This document shows, in pieces, positions 15,212 through 23,303 of a DNA stretch of 64,000 bases; position 1 is the first letter of the stretch, and each line of letters starts with the position of its first letter. The stretch lies in the NCBI GenBank assembly GCA_017443465.1, contig JAFRXO010000002.1:21880-85879 (forward strand). Reading direction: 5' to 3'. The notes beneath the pieces were generated by a model, which was not told where the DNA came from, searched no databases, and was given only the letters and a program-made list of their open reading frames with translations. The translations under genes and the position numbers were made by a program. This DNA comes from Bacteroidales bacterium. Lineage in GTDB: Bacteria > Bacteroidota > Bacteroidia > Bacteroidales > UBA932.

Positions 15212-18200
15212 TTAAATAATTATTTTCTTCGGGAACCTTACGGTAAAGCATGCTCCTCCGAGCATAAAGGACTTGGAGTAGGAAATCTCACCTCCGCATT
15301 TCTCCAGGATGTTTCGACATATGGCCAGTCCGAGGCCGGTGCCGCTGCTCTTGGTAGTGAAGTTCGGGGTAAAGAGTTTCTGCCGGTTTTCCTCGGAGAC
15401 TCCGGGACCGCTATCCTCGACCACGACGTCATAGAAGCCATCCTTACGGGAGTTCCTAAGCGACACCAGTATATTCCCTTCCCTTGGCTGGACGCCCTTC
15501 TCGATATCCTCTTCCCTCTGCCCCTCTATTGCCTGGACAGCATTGGTGAGCAGGTTTACGAAAACGCGGGTCAGCTGAGGCTTCGGACCTGAGATCATGG
15601 CATTCTCAAGGCCCATGTACTGCAGGGTGATATCCTCTTTGCTGTCGAACATGTCGATTTCCTCCTTCAGCAGCCTGTCAAGGTCTATGTCCACCGGTTC
15701 CTCGGTGTACAGACGAGCGAAAGTAGAGAACTCGTTGGCGGTGTCGGCAAGGATATCGATGTGGTCGAGCACCACCTTGCTCACCTCGTCGAACTTCTCC
15801 GCCCAAGACGGGTCTCCGCGCTGCTTCATCCTGATCAGCCTCTGGATCTGGAGCTTCATCGGGGTAAGCGGATTCTTGATCTCATGTGCTACCTGCCTTG
15901 CCATGCCGCTCCATGCCTTGTCACGCTCGGCGACTGCCAGCTTCTTTGTGGAATCCGACAAGTCGTGCACCATAAGGTTATATGCCCGCACAAGGGTCGA
16001 GATCTCATCGTTCCGGTCATATATGATATACTCCAGGTGGCCGATCTCAGCTGAATTCATCTTGCGTCCCATCTCTGAAAGCGGGCTGAACATCCTGTTG
16101 ACGACGAGGCCGACTCCAAGGCGGGAAAGGAGGAGCAGGATGATGAAGAGCATTATGACAATGGCCGAGTGAAGGATGGCCTCGGACCCGAGGTCGAAAC
16201 TCTCGTCCGAATAGGGTGCGCTCACGATTGCCAAAATACCTCCCGAGGAATTCATCACAGGAGCATACAGGGCCTGGTAGGAATGGTTGCCGATCTTCTC
16301 TGTGGCAACATAATAACGCTTGTGCGCAAGCATTATGTCGGCATATGCCTTGTCACTGATCCTCAATGGCAGGATACGCCGGTCGAAAAGCTGGGTCGCG
16401 GTCGAGCGGAACGCCATTCCGCCGGTCGTGTACAGGGTGATGTCTGTGGAATTGATGTTGCTCACCAGGTCCAGGAAGGTTGACACCTCCTGCGTGCTGA
16501 TTTCATCGACTGAATTCACGAAGCGCATACGGTCCTCCAGCATTGTCCGGATTGTCTTGATCTTGTCGGACATGTTGGAGTACATGTTGGCCCGGCTTCT
16601 CCTGATGATGAAATTCAGGCTCAGGGCCGACATGGACACCAGGGTCAGGAACAGGGAGATCATCAAGAGCCAGGTGATCCTCGACTTGTAGTAGTTGCGC
16701 TCAGCCCTCTTGCGCCTTACCATCGACAGGCCGAATAGGGAGAATACGAGGAAAAGCACTACCATCAGGACAAAGCCTGCGATCATATAGTAGAAAACGG
16801 GGATAAGCTGACGGGATATGACTATGACCTCGTCATCCCCCACGTCATGATAGAAATGCCTGTAGCCGTCATCTTTTTTCTCCCTCTCTCCCAAAGCGGT
16901 AGGATAGGCATATGCTCCCCAGCTCATCATGCACTTCCCTTCTATGTACCTGGAATAGGAGTACCTTCCCGGGAGCACTACCTGGCCTGGAGGGGTCAGG
17001 CCCAGGATACCGGAATAACCCATGGAGCCCCTGTTCGCCTTGGGCTCGACCTCTACCATGACTGTGGACATCCCATAGTCATTGTAATAGCGGAAGACAC
17101 CGGCATATCTGGGACCGCCGCTTTCATGGCGGGTGTAGATGAACCTGGATCCCGGAGCTATGATGGCACCTCCCCTGAGGCGGTCATTGTAATACTGTAT
17201 TGACTCCGGAGAACTGTCCGCATTGAATATCCTCACCGCCATGTCATAGTCAGAGACCAGCTGCGGGAAATAGATCTCCCTCAAGCGGTTCTGGATAAGG
17301 GTGACGGAATTCTCCAGGGCCGAAACCGATGCGATGAACCGGTCGGAGGCAATCTGGGTCTCCAGGCTGCGGAGGGTTATCTCCAGGGATATGTCCCTGT
17401 CCATGGACAAGCGGTTGGCCCAGACCTTCTCTATCTGATGCTCCTTGCGGAATCCCAGCACAGAGACCGATACGGTCATCAGGACCGCCAGCGCCAGCGA
17501 GAAGAAAATCCTGCCCCAAAGGGAGAAGACATCATATCTGAAAGAGAAGAGCTTCGCCACGGCAGGACGGGCCATCTGGAGAAGCAGCAGGACCGAAACC
17601 GCAAGGGATATGAAAATCATATAGACAACCGCGGTCTCCCAGGAAAGTTCCCTGATCCTGAAGAGGTCCAGGGTTATGTTGGAGTTAAGGATAATGCTCC
17701 GGAACGCCCACACGGCATACGCCGTAATACCAATGGAAAGAATCAGGAGAGCCGACAGGTTCAACACCGCGTTCCTGTCCGACTCCAGCATGGAGCGGGC
17801 GATGCCAAGGCGCGCCACATATGCATATATCACCGTCATGAAAACGGCCATAGCCACCATTACCTGGACTCCGAGCGAAGAGAAGACCGGGCCGTCGGCA
17901 TACAGGGTCGGAGAGAATATGCCGGAGGTCTCAGCCCGTCCGTGAGTCCACAGGAAGATCAGGGAGATGATCACCACCAGTCCGGCGGACGCGGCAAGCA
18001 CTCGCGGAAGGGTCTTGCGGATCGAGACATAGAAGACCGATCCGATCATATATATGAACAAGGCCAGCCATATGAAAAGCACGTCGGGACCTGTCGCGGC
18101 ATAGTCCGACTCGCTCATTATCTTGAAAACCGGCTTGCCTTCATACATCACAGGCGAACCGCCGCTGGCCGAAAGCACGTCTACGGAATATGCATCGCTC

Positions 18201-18727
18201 AGATGAAAACGCGGATTAACTCCATTATTCGACGTTTCATCCTGGAAATCAGCTATTTCCAGACCACATATGACTCTGTCGTCCTCTTCCCTGAACTCCC
18301 TGACGAGGTACCACTTCGAACCATAGTTCTCGAACGAAGGTTCCCCGGTCACATATGTCAGGGGTGAAACCAGGCTTTCGCTCAGGTTGGTAAGGGTCTG
18401 GAAGACCATAACCCTGGATATGTCGTCATTTATCAGCGGAAACGCCCCGGACCAGGCCTGCAGGCTGTCGTCTGCGTACCTGTATATGACCATGTCGGAA
18501 GGGATCTCCGCGATGTTAAGCCAGGAATAGTCGGTCTCGGACAGGGCCTGACGGGAGAACGCCTCCATCCGGGCCATCCGCTTCGCGAGGATGGACTCGA
18601 CCCTGGAAGCAGCGGCACGGGTATCCTTCGGCCCCCTGGTCACTGTAAAAGCCGCGATAATGAAGACGGCTGACAGTACCAGGAAAACGGCCGCGAAGAC
18701 CTTCCGTATGTTCATCCTGCGATTCAT
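15212..18727 (-). CDS. Large NtrY-like membrane sensor histidine kinase
   Basis: A 1171-residue protein. It has an N-terminal membrane segment, a first extracytoplasmic domain, a cluster of hydrophobic segments (about residues 205-420), a second extracytoplasmic domain, two more membrane segments, a sensory loop, a final membrane segment and a HAMP-like linker. The kinase core follows: H-box VAHEIKNPLTPM near residue 946, N-box NLLTNAVQAI, and G-boxes DSGPGVSE and GTGLGLAI. ARQVAHEIKNPLTPMKLQI is typical of the NtrY group, whose partners are NtrX-type regulators. A candidate partner is encoded at 22149. Its start overlaps the rlmH stop by 4 nt, so the two are co-transcribed. Stimulus unknown. 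Confidence 0.85.
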   Translation of the reverse strand: MNRRMNIRKVFAAVFLVLSAVFIIAAFTVTRGPKDTRAAASRVESILAKRMARMEAFSRQALSETDYSWLNIAEIPSDMVIYRYADDSLQAWSGAFPLINDDISRVMVFQTLTNLSESLVSPLTYVTGEPSFENYGSKWYLVREFREEDDRVICGLEIADFQDETSNNGVNPRFHLSDAYSVDVLSASGGSPVMYEGKPVFKIMSESDYAATGPDVLFIWLALFIYMIGSVFYVSIRKTLPRVLAASAGLVVIISLIFLWTHGRAETSGIFSPTLYADGPVFSSLGVQVMVAMAVFMTVIYAYVARLGIARSMLESDRNAVLNLSALLILSIGITAYAVWAFRSIILNSNITLDLFRIRELSWETAVVYMIFISLAVSVLLLLQMARPAVAKLFSFRYDVFSLWGRIFFSLALAVLMTVSVSVLGFRKEHQIEKVWANRLSMDRDISLEITLRSLETQIASDRFIASVSALENSVTLIQNRLREIYFPQLVSDYDMAVRIFNADSSPESIQYYNDRLRGGAIIAPGSRFIYTRHESGGPRYAGVFRYYNDYGMSTVMVEVEPKANRGSMGYSGILGLTPPGQVVLPGRYSYSRYIEGKCMMSWGAYAYPTALGEREKKDDGYRHFYHDVGDDEVIVISRQLIPVFYYMIAGFVLMVVLFLVFSLFGLSMVRRKRAERNYYKSRITWLLMISLFLTLVSMSALSLNFIIRRSRANMYSNMSDKIKTIRTMLEDRMRFVNSVDEISTQEVSTFLDLVSNINSTDITLYTTGGMAFRSTATQLFDRRILPLRISDKAYADIMLAHKRYYVATEKIGNHSYQALYAPVMNSSGGILAIVSAPYSDESFDLGSEAILHSAIVIMLFIILLLLSRLGVGLVVNRMFSPLSEMGRKMNSAEIGHLEYIIYDRNDEISTLVRAYNLMVHDLSDSTKKLAVAERDKAWSGMARQVAHEIKNPLTPMKLQIQRLIRMKQRGDPSWAEKFDEVSKVVLDHIDILADTANEFSTFARLYTEEPVDIDLDRLLKEEIDMFDSKEDITLQYMGLENAMISGPKPQLTRVFVNLLTNAVQAIEGQREEDIEKGVQPREGNILVSLRNSRKDGFYDVVVEDSGPGVSEENRQKLFTPNFTTKSSGTGLGLAICRNILEKCGGEISYSKSFMLGGACFTVRFPKKIII

Positions 18728-19194
18728 TCGTGATGGTAGGGCTCACCCCTCATTATAGTGAAAGCCCGGTAGAGCTGCTCTGCAAAAACCGTACGGACCA
18801 TCTGGTGGGGAAACGTCATTTTTGAGAGAGACAGTTTTCCTTCCGCCCGTGCATAAACCGCCTCCGAGAATCCATATGCTCCGCCTATGACGAAAACCAT
18901 GTCCTGACCGGACATCATCCTGTCCGAAAGCCAGGCGGAGAACTGCATTGAACTCATCTGGATTCCCCTCTCGTCCAGAAGGAAAACCTTGTCCCTCGGC
19001 TTGAGTGCCTTGAGGATAAGTTCCCCTTCCTTCACCTTGACCTGCGCCTCGCTCAGGGAAGATGCACCCTTCAGTTCAGGGATCTCGGAAAGGGTGAACG
19101 GCACATAATGTCCCAGCCGGGATATGTACATATCCAGCCCCTGCCTTACCCAGGCAACATCCGTCTTCCCTACTGTGAGCAGCGTAATGTGCAT
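18724..19194 (-). CDS. rlmH: 23S rRNA (pseudouridine1915-N3)-methyltransferase RlmH
   Basis: A 156-residue SPOUT methyltransferase that acts on helix 69 of 23S rRNA. The start is set at MHITLLTVGKTD, the usual family N-terminus; the frame runs 18 codons further upstream but that extension is not conserved in kind. Family motifs are seen: FLLDERGIQMSS, FVIGGAYGFSEAV and the C-terminal FPHQMVRTVFAEQLYRAFTI followed by YHHE. It overlaps the large sensor kinase gene by 4 nt. Confidence 0.93.
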   Translation of the reverse strand: MHITLLTVGKTDVAWVRQGLDMYISRLGHYVPFTLSEIPELKGASSLSEAQVKVKEGELILKALKPRDKVFLLDERGIQMSSMQFSAWLSDRMMSGQDMVFVIGGAYGFSEAVYARAEGKLSLSKMTFPHQMVRTVFAEQLYRAFTIMRGEPYHHE

Positions 19195-19259
19195 AAATTG
19201 ACGGTTATATGTGCAAATATAATAAATGCGGCTTGTTTTTTGCAACAAAACGGGGCGTT

Positions 19260-19664
19260 ATGGAAATCCTCCGGAAATTGACGCTTGCTGCAGTGCTCGC
19301 GTTTGCCTGCCTTGGACTGAAAGCCCAGGGCGGGAGTTACGATGTCTTCGTTCCCATAGCGAAATACATCAGCCAGGGGGATGCCGACAGGCTCTCAGCA
19401 TGGTTCGCCGACAACCTGGAAATATCCATCCAGTCAAAGTCTGTCGAATCCAGTAAAACCCAGGCCAGGCAGATCATGCGCACGTTTTTCGGCACTCACA
19501 CTCCCCAGACATTCGACATCACCCACACTGCAAGCCGGTCCAATGTCAAGTATGCACTCGGTTCACTGAGTACCGGAGGTGAAGTCTATATGGTCACCAT
19601 ATTCGTGTCTTCGGACGGAAGGACTTACAAGATACAGCAGTTGAAAATCGACAAAAATCGATAA
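19260..19664 (+). CDS. DUF4783-like secreted protein
   Basis: About 134 residues from the ATG at 19260, with a signal peptide (LTLAAVLAFACLGLKAQG). The mature part resembles the small NTF2-like DUF4783 proteins of Bacteroidetes: DVFVPIAKYISQGDADRLSAWF, then a beta-rich segment ending FVSSDGRTYKIQQLKI. Function is unknown. The frame is open 17 codons upstream, but a signal peptide directly after the internal ATG decides the start. It is divergent from rlmH across about 65 nt and convergent with efp. Confidence 0.75.
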   Translation: MEILRKLTLAAVLAFACLGLKAQGGSYDVFVPIAKYISQGDADRLSAWFADNLEISIQSKSVESSKTQARQIMRTFFGTHTPQTFDITHTASRSNVKYALGSLSTGGEVYMVTIFVSSDGRTYKIQQLKIDKNR

Positions 19665-19697
19665 AGTAAACAAACTAAAGCAATTTTGACGCCTTTT

Positions 19698-19713
19698 TGG
19701 CACAAGACTTGCA
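19698..19713 (+). promoter_or_regulatory. Consensus sigma-54 (-24/-12) promoter
   Basis: The sequence TGGCACAAGACTTGCA matches the sigma-54 consensus TGGCAC-N5-TTGCA at every defined position and with the exact spacing. A T-rich tract precedes it, as is usual. The predicted start of transcription is near 19724. No coding frame follows before the terminator at 19760-19793, so the promoter would serve a short RNA. The sequence match is direct; activity is inferred. Confidence 0.7.
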
Positions 19714-19723
19714 AATAAATCGG

Positions 19724-19793
19724 ACGGTTAGTTTAGTTAATAATAGGGTTAAAATCAAGAAAAGGAGACAGCCGCGAGGTTCTCTCCTTTTTT
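19724..19793 (+). ncRNA. Candidate sigma-54-dependent small RNA (about 70 nt)
   Basis: The interval from the predicted start to the end of the T-run is about 70 nt. It has an AT-rich single-stranded 5' part and ends in a classic hairpin plus six Ts. It contains no open frame of note and no tRNA-like or other known RNA fold that I recognise. It lies between convergent DUF4783 and efp genes. The main alternative is that the hairpin only terminates those genes and the promoter match is chance. Confidence 0.45.
19760..19793 (+). terminator. Intrinsic terminator
   Basis: AAAAGGAGA (19760-19768) pairs with TCTCCTTTT (19783-19791), extendable by two more pairs. The loop is 14 nt and the T-run is on the plus strand. 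It would end transcription from the sigma-54-like promoter, from DUF4783, or both. The minus-strand side is only moderately T-rich, so it is a weaker terminator for efp. Confidence 0.75.
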
Positions 19794-19821
19794 CATTATG
19801 TGTATTTCGAAGTGAAGTCTG

Positions 19822-20391
19822 CTACCTCTCGACCCTCTGGCCGTAAGTGCGGTCAACAGTGTTGACGGTGATCACATCACCGGTATTGATGAACAAGGGG
19901 ACCATCACCTTTGCTCCGGTCTCGAGAGTGCATTCCTTCTGCGCGTTGGTAGAAGTGTTGCCCTTGACTGCGGGTTCCGAATAAGTGACCTCGAGAGTGA
20001 CATATGTCGGGAGCTCACATGTGAGGCACCTCTCCTCGGGCTCGGTCACGAACATCATCTCGACATGCTGTCCTTCCTTCATGAGGTCGTTGTTGGCCAC
20101 TACGTCCTGGGGGATGGAAACCTGCTCATAGGTCTCTTCATGCATGAAGACGAAGTTGTCACCCTCGGCATAGAGGTACTGGTAAGGACGCCTTTCGACA
20201 GAGATGGTTTCTACCCTGGCGCCGGCGTTGTAAGTGTTCTCGAGAATCCTTCCGTTCTCAAGGTTGCGGAGCTTTACCTTCACGAAAGCGGGGCCCTTTC
20301 CGGGTTTCACATGCTGGAACCATACGATGACACAGGGTTTCCCGTTGAAATCGAGATAAAGACCGTTCTTAAAATCAGCTGTTGTTGCCAT
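19822..20391 (-). CDS. efp: Translation elongation factor P
   Basis: A 189-residue protein with the three-domain EF-P layout. It relieves ribosome stalling at proline stretches. The conserved tip loop reads HVKPGKGPAF with Lys32 at the position that is post-translationally modified in many bacteria. The C-terminal domain contains TLETGAKVMVPLFINTGD, the EF-P signature region. No modification enzyme gene is visible nearby. The start lies in a CATATG context, 37 nt downstream of a promoter element inside the ispH 3' end. Confidence 0.95.
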   Translation of the reverse strand: MATTADFKNGLYLDFNGKPCVIVWFQHVKPGKGPAFVKVKLRNLENGRILENTYNAGARVETISVERRPYQYLYAEGDNFVFMHEETYEQVSIPQDVVANNDLMKEGQHVEMMFVTEPEERCLTCELPTYVTLEVTYSEPAVKGNTSTNAQKECTLETGAKVMVPLFINTGDVITVNTVDRTYGQRVER

Positions 20392-20428
20392 ATGTTTGTA
20401 AAATATTAATATTGACTGATAAATCGTG

Positions 20429-20460
20429 CAAATTTAGTGATATCTCAGGCAAAGTGCAAA
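20429..20460 (-). promoter_or_regulatory. Promoter for efp
   Basis: On the minus strand, TTTG (complement of 20457-20460) and TAAATTTG (complement of 20429-20436) are separated by 20 nt, matching the Bacteroidetes -33/-7 layout. The start of efp follows about 38 nt downstream. The -33 part lies inside the last codons of ispH, so efp can be expressed independently of cmk-ispH. Confidence 0.6.
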
Positions 20461-21353
20461 ATTTTCTCGGCAACCTCCTCAAGCAGCCACTTGGGAGTAG
20501 AGGTAGCGCCGCACACTCCGACCCTGTCATCGGCCCTGAACCACTCCCTGCGGATATCCTCACACTGGCCTATCTGGTAAGTCCTGATATTCACAGACCT
20601 GCACAGGTCGCAAAGGACCTTCCCGTTTGAACTTGAACGTCCCGAGACAAAGATGACTACATCGTGGCTGCGCGCAAACTCTTCCAGCTCGCTGTGACGC
20701 GAAGCCACCTGTGAGCATATGGTGTCATGCACGGTCAGCTCACCTCCGTCACGGGTCACAAGGCGCGAGAGGGCCGAGCATATGTCTACATACCCGGTCG
20801 GGCTCTTGGTGGTCTGGGAGAATATTTCAATCGGCCCGCCGGTACGGATTTTCCCTTCCGCGACAGCCTGGTCGAACATCGTCCTGTCCTCGATGACTAT
20901 GGCGTCTCCGCCGATCTGGCCGAGGAGGCCGAGGACTTCGGCATGTGCCGCCTTTCCGAAAATGACCACCTGCCCGTTCCTTCCGTCGGAGTGGAGACGG
21001 TCATATGCTTCCTTTATGCTTTTCTGAAGTTTGAGGACTACCGGACACGTGCAGTCAATCACCTTGAATCCAAGTCTTTCCGCTATGCTGTAGGTCTCGG
21101 GAGGTTCTCCGTGCGCGCGAATCAGGAGGGTCTCTCCCCCGGCGTCTACCATCTGTCGGAGATCCTCGGGATCAAGGGTGACAAGTCCCTTCCCTTCAAG
21201 GCGTCCGAGCTCAGCTTCATTGTGTACTATGGAACCCAGGGAGTACAGACGGCTCCCCTTCTTGTCTTCCAGCCAGGATTCGGCTATCCGGATAGCACGG
21301 GTGACACCGCCGCAGAATCCGGAATTGGGATCGATATCGACTTCAAGCGACAT
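20445..21353 (-). CDS. ispH: 4-hydroxy-3-methylbut-2-enyl diphosphate reductase
   Basis: A 302-residue LytB/IspH protein, the last enzyme of the MEP isoprenoid pathway, making IPP and DMAPP with a [4Fe-4S] cluster. Conserved elements are Cys14 in NSGFCGGVTRAI, IVHNEAE, RAHGEPP, the second cysteine region DCTCPVV, and the third in RVGVCGATSTPKWLLEEV. It follows cmk by 2 nt; the cmk-ispH pairing is common in Bacteroidales. Confidence 0.95.
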   Translation of the reverse strand: MSLEVDIDPNSGFCGGVTRAIRIAESWLEDKKGSRLYSLGSIVHNEAELGRLEGKGLVTLDPEDLRQMVDAGGETLLIRAHGEPPETYSIAERLGFKVIDCTCPVVLKLQKSIKEAYDRLHSDGRNGQVVIFGKAAHAEVLGLLGQIGGDAIVIEDRTMFDQAVAEGKIRTGGPIEIFSQTTKSPTGYVDICSALSRLVTRDGGELTVHDTICSQVASRHSELEEFARSHDVVIFVSGRSSSNGKVLCDLCRSVNIRTYQIGQCEDIRREWFRADDRVGVCGATSTPKWLLEEVAEKILHFA

Positions 21354-22148: not shown

Positions 22149-23303
22149 ATGAAAATCCTGGTAGTCGACGACGAGAAGTCAATCCGTAATTCCCTCAGGG
22201 AGATCCTCTCCGACGAGGGTTATGAGGTTGATGTGGCCGAGGATGGTCCCATCGCCCTCAAGATGACCGCTGACGAGAAATACGACATAATATTCTGCGA
22301 CATCAAGATGCCGGGGATGGACGGGACCGAGGTGCTGTCGACCCTGGCCGGTTCGGGTTACGATGCCGCGATAATCATGATTTCCGGGCACGGAGACATC
22401 GACACCGCAGTGGACTGCATCAAGAAAGGAGCATATGATTTCATCCAGAAGCCCCTGGACCTCAACCGCATTCTCATAACCATAAAGAACGCTACCGACA
22501 AGACCAAGCTCGTCCAGGAGACCAAGACCCTCAAGAAGAAAGTCTACGGCGGACAGCATATGGTAGGCAGTTCTGCCGCCCTTCAGCATATCCGCGACAT
22601 AATCTCCAAAGTAGCGGCGACGGATGCCAGGGTCCTTATCGAAGGAGCCAACGGCACGGGAAAGGAGCTGGTCGCCAGGTCCCTCTATCAGGAAAGCGAC
22701 AGGGCCAACATGCCTTACATCGAGGTAAACTGTGCGGCTATCCCCTCTGAACTGATCGAGAGCGAACTGTTCGGACATGAAAAAGGCTCCTTCACCTCGG
22801 CCATCAAGCAGCACAAGGGAAAATTCGAGCAGGCTGACGGCGGAACTTTGTTCCTGGACGAGATAGGAGACATGTCCCTCGCCGCACAGGCGAAGGTCTT
22901 GAGGGTTCTCCAGGAGAAGAAGCTCTCCAGGGTCGGAAGCGACAAGGACATCGAAGTCAACGTAAGGGTGATCGCGGCTACCAACAAGGACCTCAAGGCC
23001 GAGATCGAGAAGGGGAATTTCCGTGAAGACCTGTATCACAGGCTCTCTGTGATCATTATCCGCGTCCCCACCCTGGATGAACGTAAGGAAGACATCCCTG
23101 AACTGGTACAGTATTTCACGGCACAGATATGCGCTGAGAGCGGAAAGCCACTCCGCACCTTCTCTCCGGAAGCTGTCAAAGCCCTGCAGGCCAAGAGCTG
23201 GCCCGGAAACATCCGTGAGTTGCGCAACGTAGTGGAGAGGCTGCTGATCCTCGGCAATGAACCGGTCACGGCTAAAGACGTGTCCGACTATGCCTCTGCC
23301 TGA
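22149..23303 (+). CDS. NtrX/NtrC-family response regulator lacking a DNA-binding domain
   Basis: A 384-residue protein. The receiver domain covers residues 1-120 (acid pocket Asp7/Asp8, phosphoacceptor Asp51 in FCDIKMPG). An AAA+ domain follows with Walker A GANGTGKE, Walker B GGTLFLDEIGD and the arginine-finger region NFREDLYHRLSV. The sigma-54-contacting GAFTGA loop is altered to GSFTSA (residues 213-218). The protein ends 30 or so residues after the AAA+ domain (VTAKDVSDYASA), with no Fis-type helix-turn-helix. It may act through another protein or without DNA contact. The NtrY-like kinase at 15212-18727 is a candidate partner. Confidence 0.88.
   Translation: MKILVVDDEKSIRNSLREILSDEGYEVDVAEDGPIALKMTADEKYDIIFCDIKMPGMDGTEVLSTLAGSGYDAAIIMISGHGDIDTAVDCIKKGAYDFIQKPLDLNRILITIKNATDKTKLVQETKTLKKKVYGGQHMVGSSAALQHIRDIISKVAATDARVLIEGANGTGKELVARSLYQESDRANMPYIEVNCAAIPSELIESELFGHEKGSFTSAIKQHKGKFEQADGGTLFLDEIGDMSLAAQAKVLRVLQEKKLSRVGSDKDIEVNVRVIAATNKDLKAEIEKGNFREDLYHRLSVIIIRVPTLDERKEDIPELVQYFTAQICAESGKPLRTFSPEAVKALQAKSWPGNIRELRNVVERLLILGNEPVTAKDVSDYASA

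Follow-up and report, generated by a model that had tools for sequence, protein, structure and literature searches.

Does a sigma-54 promoter string in the short gap between two convergent genes, with a terminator-like hairpin behind it, mark a small RNA gene, or do a chance match and an ordinary terminator merely stand side by side? The question arose from a 64,000-nucleotide stretch of DNA from a Bacteroidales bacterium (the window), whose genus we infer to be Candidatus Cryptobacteroides. A sequence-only reading had proposed a sigma-54-dependent RNA of about 70 nt at this site, and that proposal is supported by a promoter and leader that are conserved in relatives and by a hairpin whose pairing is kept. 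We put the probability at roughly 85% that the site belongs to a paralogous family of sRNA genes that are driven by sigma-54, end in a terminator and occur in the window's genus; a transcript is predicted from sequence comparison. The family nature of the gene was absent from the sequence-only reading. The locus holds the following features:

15212..18727, minus strand: NtrY-like sensor kinase, candidate partner of NtrX (HATPase_c above the Pfam cut-off)
19260..19664, plus strand: DUF4783 gene directly upstream of the sRNA (Pfam PF16022, E 1.2e-27), the neighbour of the commonest copy type
19698..19713, plus strand: sigma-54 -24/-12 promoter, TGGCAC-N5-TTGCA, exact consensus match (TGGCACAAGACTTGCA)
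19724..19757, plus strand: predicted unpaired 5' leader of the sRNA (from folding and relatives; 5' end from promoter spacing)
19758..19793, plus strand: terminator hairpin with a GCGA tetraloop (GNRA class) and a U-run, the predicted 3' end of the sRNA (from folding and pairing in relatives)
19822-20391, minus strand: EF-P (efp) gene, convergent, downstream of the hairpin
22149..23303, plus strand: NtrX-like sigma-54 activator with receiver and AAA+ domains only (Pfam), candidate activator of the sRNA promoter

Open reading frames and Pfam confirmed that the site lies between an NtrY-like and an NtrX-like gene, as first described; in the kinase, HisKA and sCache_3_3 scored slightly under their Pfam cut-offs. 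The promoter string has the GG of the -24 element and the GC of the -12 element at the fixed spacing of sigma-54-dependent promoters, and the exact match upholds its original description as the consensus. TGGCACN5TTGCA occurred exactly once in the 64-kb window and twice in the 2.65-Mb genome, and its reversed control gave no exact match. With up to two mismatches allowed, 12 sites were observed in the window against 14.95 expected, which is chance level. Because the degenerate motif occurs at chance frequency, a single TGGCACAAGACTTGCA site proves little alone, and proof has to come from comparative evidence. Taking C19712 as -12 places +1 near 19724. No listed open reading frame of at least 70 aa covers promoter, leader or hairpin, the nearest ending at 19664 and 19822, in agreement with the claim that no gene lies between promoter and hairpin.

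RNA polymerase with sigma-54 would thus start near 19724 and stop at the hairpin that ends near 19793, giving a predicted RNA of about 70 nt from the start to the end of the T-run. Such an RNA would consist of a conserved unpaired leader and a terminator, with its paralogs intergenic and one to few per genome, and its synthesis would need RpoN. The leader holds no C from 19726 to 19755. The hairpin consists of 11 pairs, a C/C mismatch, 4 pairs and the GCGA loop, and the fold of 19755-19797 has an energy of -18.3 kcal/mol (z -4.7). The position and T-run of the hairpin were as the sequence-only reading had them, and its 9 to 11 bp became 11 + 4 pairs around the mismatch. A simple terminator scan of the window did not place 19758-19793 among its listed terminators.

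The minus-strand version of the hairpin also folds (-14.3 kcal/mol), and since the flanking genes converge, it could serve both strands and end the efp transcript as well. This bears on the simplest alternative, in which DUF4783 and efp merely share the hairpin as a two-way terminator and the promoter-like string arose by chance. Folding on both strands, the convergence of the two genes at this point and the chance-level count of two-mismatch promoter versions all suit such an account. It makes no provision, however, for a promoter and leader that turn up as a pair next to unrelated genes and are more strongly conserved than the sequence of the hairpin. That is the pattern found in relatives, as set out below, and we regard the two-way terminator as a very improbable explanation of the site.

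When the 171 bases around the site were compared with 100 relatives and the window's own genome, 21 of the 101 genomes matched: its own, 19 of the same genus and 1 of another family. In the genus matches the aligned part was mostly promoter and leader. The loci that were read usually showed TGGCAY-N4/5-TTGN, followed after 16-21 nt by a leader resembling GGTTAGTTTAGTT(GTT)AATAATAGGGTT and next by a hairpin, in most cases with a T-run; the hairpin sequence was quite different between copies, and the order of parts was the same in nearly all loci.

A scan with a 20-base leader pattern against named genomes, in which the promoter was not used, returned at least 124 instances in at least 118 stretches. 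Among the matches listed, the promoter TGGC[AG][CT]N4-5TTGN stood upstream of 116 of 124 instances, at a gap of 16-21 nt apart from two at 25 nt. The first 80 loci had it in 79/84 instances (16-19 nt upstream, one at 25) and the other 38 loci in 37/40 (16-18 nt, one at 21 and one at 25). The eight promoter-less instances among the matches listed comprised six chance matches, one copy cut by the end of its locus and one with a base off; the L209 copy reads AGGCAT in place of TGGCAT. All six chance matches lay outside the genus (Paludibacter, two Flavobacteriales, Clostridium, a 'Bacteroidetes' MAG and an 'archaeon' MAG), and their tails fold at -5 to -11.5 kcal/mol. The last base of the -12 element varies, strict TTGC being present in 97 of the 124 instances among the matches listed. 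A full unit (L205) was also seen in a MAG labelled Oscillospiraceae; it is very like L178 and probably comes from a misbinned contig.

A covariance model of leader and hairpin was built from five copies in register, after a MAFFT alignment of all copies had misplaced the stems and was dropped. The promoter was left out of the model so that the promoter test should stay independent. At E 0.01 this RNA-only model gave 76 matches in 57 of 101 genus genomes; 39 of them, in 33 genomes, scored at least 37.9 bits, with two in each of six genomes and one in the window's own genome. A promoter stood upstream of 39/39 matches at or above 37.9 bits. In one set, 70 of the 76 matches were read with their upstream DNA, 37 strong (at least 37.9 bits) and 33 weaker. 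TGGCA[CT]N4-5TTG preceded 37/37 strong matches (strict TTGC in 30/37), and of the weaker ones 12/33 had the promoter or a TGG variant and 21/33 did not; shuffled upstream regions held the promoter pattern in 5/14000 cases.

The leader core was exact in 23 of the 37 strong copies, had one substitution in 5 and at least three in 9. Pattern-found copies have an exact core by construction, and since both model and pattern were built from window-like copies, they count too few diverged members and make the leader look more conserved than it is. No model match at E 0.01 was found in 44 of the 101 genus genomes, and 24 more had weaker matches only; many of these genomes are incomplete MAGs, and the large scans used stricter filters. 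Two weak genus matches were rejected: L244 and L245 turned out to be a lipoprotein 5' UTR read on its reverse strand. Four other weak matches (L082, L088, L093, L096) resemble sRNA genes; they have a TGGCACGnnnnTGG-type promoter, GNRA hairpins and a leader unlike that of the family, with CATATTGAATA in two of them, and are possibly a sister sigma-54 sRNA family.

These comparisons show promoter, leader and terminator to be one conserved unit. A hairpin conserved where the promoter is not would have spoken against the sRNA; relatives show the opposite, with promoter and leader kept and the hairpin sequence changing, and the original interpretation survives. Hairpins that drift freely beside a kept promoter and leader also make the family a natural experiment for telling which parts of an sRNA are important.

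Pairing in the hairpin was analyzed in 98 matches, 96 of them distinct, with an alignment that was fitted to the structure model and flatters the numbers: 94.8% of pair cells were paired across the 96 distinct relatives, and double-sided changes filled 618 cells compared to 177.6 in shuffles, the covariation that the sequence-only reading had called for. Each of the 14 pairs had changes on both sides in some copies. When the partner was slid by 1-3 columns, pairing fell to 41-52%, and single-sequence folds agreed with the model-based pairing. These comparative data show that the hairpin is under selection for pairing. The locus combines a conserved structure, compensatory changes and the absence of a coding frame, as expected of a terminator-bounded small RNA.

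The setting of the copies was then used to weigh other origins for the RNA. Across the first 80 loci, 39 of 84 leader instances followed immediately after a DUF4783 gene of their own strand; RlmH was near at least 36 of these 39 and an NtrY-like kinase near at least 25, judged from the nearest four pieces per locus. The remaining copies follow a variety of genes, and two or three copies occur on some contigs. Contig SUYM01000021.1 (L138, L126) has copies at about 20.8, 25.0 and 27.0 kb, the first of them amid long ORFs, and another contig of the same MAG, SIG150, bears a fourth (L181). In a set of 78 copies none lay inside a called ORF. The gene downstream converged on the copy in 43, shared its strand in 24 and was not in view in 11; as this gene and its direction vary, the element is not the leader of one operon. 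The same 78-copy setting, with its lack of ORF overlap and its varied downstream genes, speaks against a cis-leader or attenuator.

The upstream side leaves room for a different source, an RNA that is mainly 3'-UTR-derived and cut from the upstream mRNA (here that of DUF4783), sharing its terminator and using the promoter as a second source. In 64/78 copies the upstream gene shares the strand of the sRNA, and the median distance from its stop codon to the promoter is 15 nt, as this would predict. Yet copies behind unrelated genes retain the -24/-12 element at its usual distance from the leader, and the upstream gene is divergent in 9/78 copies and out of view in 5/78. Processing from the upstream mRNA is in our judgement an unlikely main source, and the sRNA is better read as the product of its own sigma-54 promoter.

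The phylogenetic range was surveyed with a wider model made from 98 copies, for which 19 candidates per genome were scored in the family and 16 in the order. At E 0.001 matches occurred in 24 of 249 family genomes (20 of them of the genus) and 8 of 295 order genomes (2 of the genus). The ten matches outside the genus were read by eye: eight had no promoter, and two were weak with a sigma-54-like element. The latter (L241, L242) come from two other genera of the family and have that element, a diverged leader and a terminator. Nothing convincing was thus seen outside the genus in the 249 family and 295 order genomes, and viral contigs held no exact leader core. In sister genera, 67 DUF4783 loci were found, 50 fetched and 48 readable, and no promoter lay within 320 nt behind DUF4783 in the 48 (one of which then runs into Ns). 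At this search sensitivity the family looks confined to the genus, and it looks young or fast-changing. Sister-genus loci without the sRNA keep the neighbourhood, with NtrY near 24/50 and RlmH near 37/50; the NtrY-RlmH-DUF4783 neighbourhood is thus older than the sRNA, and gene order by itself is no proof of a link between the sRNA and NtrX.

The family is apparently previously undescribed, within the literature and Rfam searched. No Rfam family reached threshold anywhere in the window, and permissive Rfam scans of 19000-20500 and of the loci of ten relatives returned no match at the sRNA. In Proteobacteria, Qrr, GlmY and CrcZ are known examples of sRNAs that depend on sigma-54. The Qrr RNAs of Vibrio occur as several paralogs per genome with sigma-54 promoters, a shared core and an intrinsic terminator; their activator is LuxO, which is homologous to NtrC and has a DNA-binding domain. 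The family described here resembles Qrr in its multi-copy sigma-54 logic and differs in the DNA-binding domain of the Qrr activator, in host phylum and in targets, and it has no Rfam match. MicA and RybB, sigma-E sRNAs that silence outer-membrane proteins in an Hfq-dependent manner, have another sigma factor and other sequences; they would be functional analogues only if the lead on SusC-like and lipoprotein targets given below, for which the evidence is weak, is right.

Within the Bacteroidales, the closest likeness is to the FopS RNAs of Bacteroides, which are likewise paralogous and mostly intergenic sRNAs according to the sections of PMC11697453 available. Both have a single-stranded conserved 5' part followed by a terminator, and both are multicopy (here two copies in six of 33 genomes, one in the window genome). 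The same sections report susC mRNA as a FopS target and, as a difference, promoters of the canonical sigma-ABfr type and a copy number of 12-15 per genome for named Bacteroides species. A by-eye look at the copies of our family showed sigma-54 elements instead of the sigma-ABfr motif. Our model had no convincing match in 295 order genomes (16 candidates each) that would point to homology with the FopS leader (R1 seed). The two families are set apart by description, with sigma-54 promoters and one to few copies here.

In Flavobacterium psychrophilum, the SM4 (sigma-54) promoters are comparable in belonging to Bacteroidota, with mapped transcription starts, three PF00158 proteins and an envelope-stress link; the available text describes them at protein-coding genes and names no sigma-54-driven sRNA (PMC9723704). 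The main text of a comparative sigma-54 regulon study does not contain the words sRNA or small RNA (PMC12316311). The literature searched held no sigma-54-driven sRNA in Bacteroidota and no such RNA in Cryptobacteroides, in line with the initial impression that a sigma-54-controlled sRNA would be new for Bacteroidetes. The poorly known sigma-54 system of gut Bacteroidales would gain from this locus a concrete RNA output and a candidate activator that has no DNA-binding domain.

The window's genome encodes both RpoN (one PF04552 match) and AAA+ activators, with three strong and five weak PF00158 matches. The three strong ones are the window's NtrX-like protein, a receiver-AAA-HTH protein (L219) and an AAA-HTH protein beside an LptE-like gene (L220); the translations of the last two end in an apparent Fis-type HTH. 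In the NtrX-like protein (384 residues), Pfam matches reach residue 379 and include no DNA-binding domain. Among 36 NtrX matches from the genus and its sister genera, 35, the window's own included, run to the protein end and stop at most 6 residues from it, and the other was aligned to residue 201 only. By this comparison, the NtrX-like activator is without a DNA-binding domain throughout the genus and sister genera.

Activators of this type, such as FlgR and CtcC, do not strictly need an upstream site. Upstream words were counted in about 250 nt of the 37 non-DUF4783 copies, since a first run on all copies was swamped by DUF4783 coding conservation. No word, gapped or ungapped, was clearly enriched in this test, which is weak for degenerate sites; a few occurred in one or two sequences more than in the best of 10 shuffles. 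The lack of a DNA-binding domain together with the lack of a clear upstream site makes NtrX, we infer, the likeliest activator of the sRNA promoter. The nearby NtrX would then act from solution under NtrY control, a step we hold to be about evenly balanced. A soluble activator without an enhancer site would fit both the missing domain and the missing site, and it would let the gene sit just behind a stop codon.

The serious competitor is activation by the L219 or L220 protein through a site that escaped detection. Both are encoded in the genome, match PF00158 and have apparent Fis-type HTH ends, whereas no clearly enriched upstream word was seen in the 37 non-DUF4783 copies, with the stated weakness for degenerate sites. 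We consider this somewhat short of an even bet. The initial link of an NtrY/NtrX-type system to sigma-54 is thus plausible from the local pair and the missing DNA-binding domain, and unproven given the two other activators.

The sRNA probably functions post-transcriptionally. Its leader would likely act in trans, as a base-pairing seed or as the docking site of an RNA-binding protein; a core free of C and predicted to be unpaired suits either role. Antisense searches used leader 16-mers and an 18-mer in 20 genus genomes. The 18-mer gave 40 antisense matches outside sRNA genes compared to 45 for the reversed pattern, which is no excess. Their placement differed: a start codon followed at 1-24 nt in target orientation for 23/40 and in mirror orientation for 4/40, compared to 7/45 and 3/45 for the reversed pattern (Fisher p 8e-5). 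With a tighter cut, chosen after seeing the data, the control had 1/45 within 24 nt (p 9e-9). By eye, the genes of the 23 comprised 16 SusC-like and 5 lipoprotein genes, with some orthologs counted twice; the best antisense matches, 17/18, precede a gene for a SusC-like protein at G140:C7 and one for a lipoprotein at G198:C18.

Other observations tempered this placement. Complementarity was not clearly extended beyond the 18 nt searched, the flanks of target-like matches agreeing at 3.35 of 9 and 2.26 of 8 bases compared to 2.53 and 2.41 in the remaining matches. Gene starts that were not picked by the pattern showed no excess of leader matches, whether SusC-like (n=17, loose phmmer cut, mean z -0.04) or lipoprotein; starts of the signal-peptide class leaned slightly toward a leader match (p 0.04), and a smaller gene-start sample likewise did not support targeting. 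A common SusC 5'-UTR motif could explain the clustering at start codons. Targeting of SusC-like and lipoprotein genes by the leader, drawn from complementarity, is therefore a lead only. As a tentative suggestion, firing of the kinase would lead to repression of some SusC-like transporters and lipoproteins, whose translation starts would be among the targets.

The conserved leader might instead be a protein sponge or docking array, with no antisense seed, which would suit an RRM-type protein such as RbpB. The leader core has no C and repeats UAGUU, the common leader form holding three, and the conserved stretch exceeds the usual seed length. RbpB of B. thetaiotaomicron favours single-stranded RNA, according to the sections of PMC11697453 available. 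We think a pure docking array doubtful next to a leader that may pair with mRNAs.

Joined together, these parts would describe a Bacteroidota counterpart of envelope-stress sRNAs, in which NtrY and a soluble NtrX fire dispersed paralogous sRNAs via sigma-54 and the C-free leader core covers the translation starts of a subset of SusC-like transporter and surface lipoprotein genes. The full scheme is speculative, and we rate it as unlikely to hold in every part. If true, it would mean that glycan uptake is shut down under envelope stress, and that new copies can arise behind almost any stop codon because the promoter needs no enhancer site. Two minor observations came from the same searches. A leader-antisense match with 2 mismatches in 16 lies in the 5' UTR of nucleoside diphosphate kinase-like genes of three genomes (L323, L324, L331), and the control pattern led to a sequence repeated three times at 105-bp spacing in L472 (G255:C2, 807-1034).
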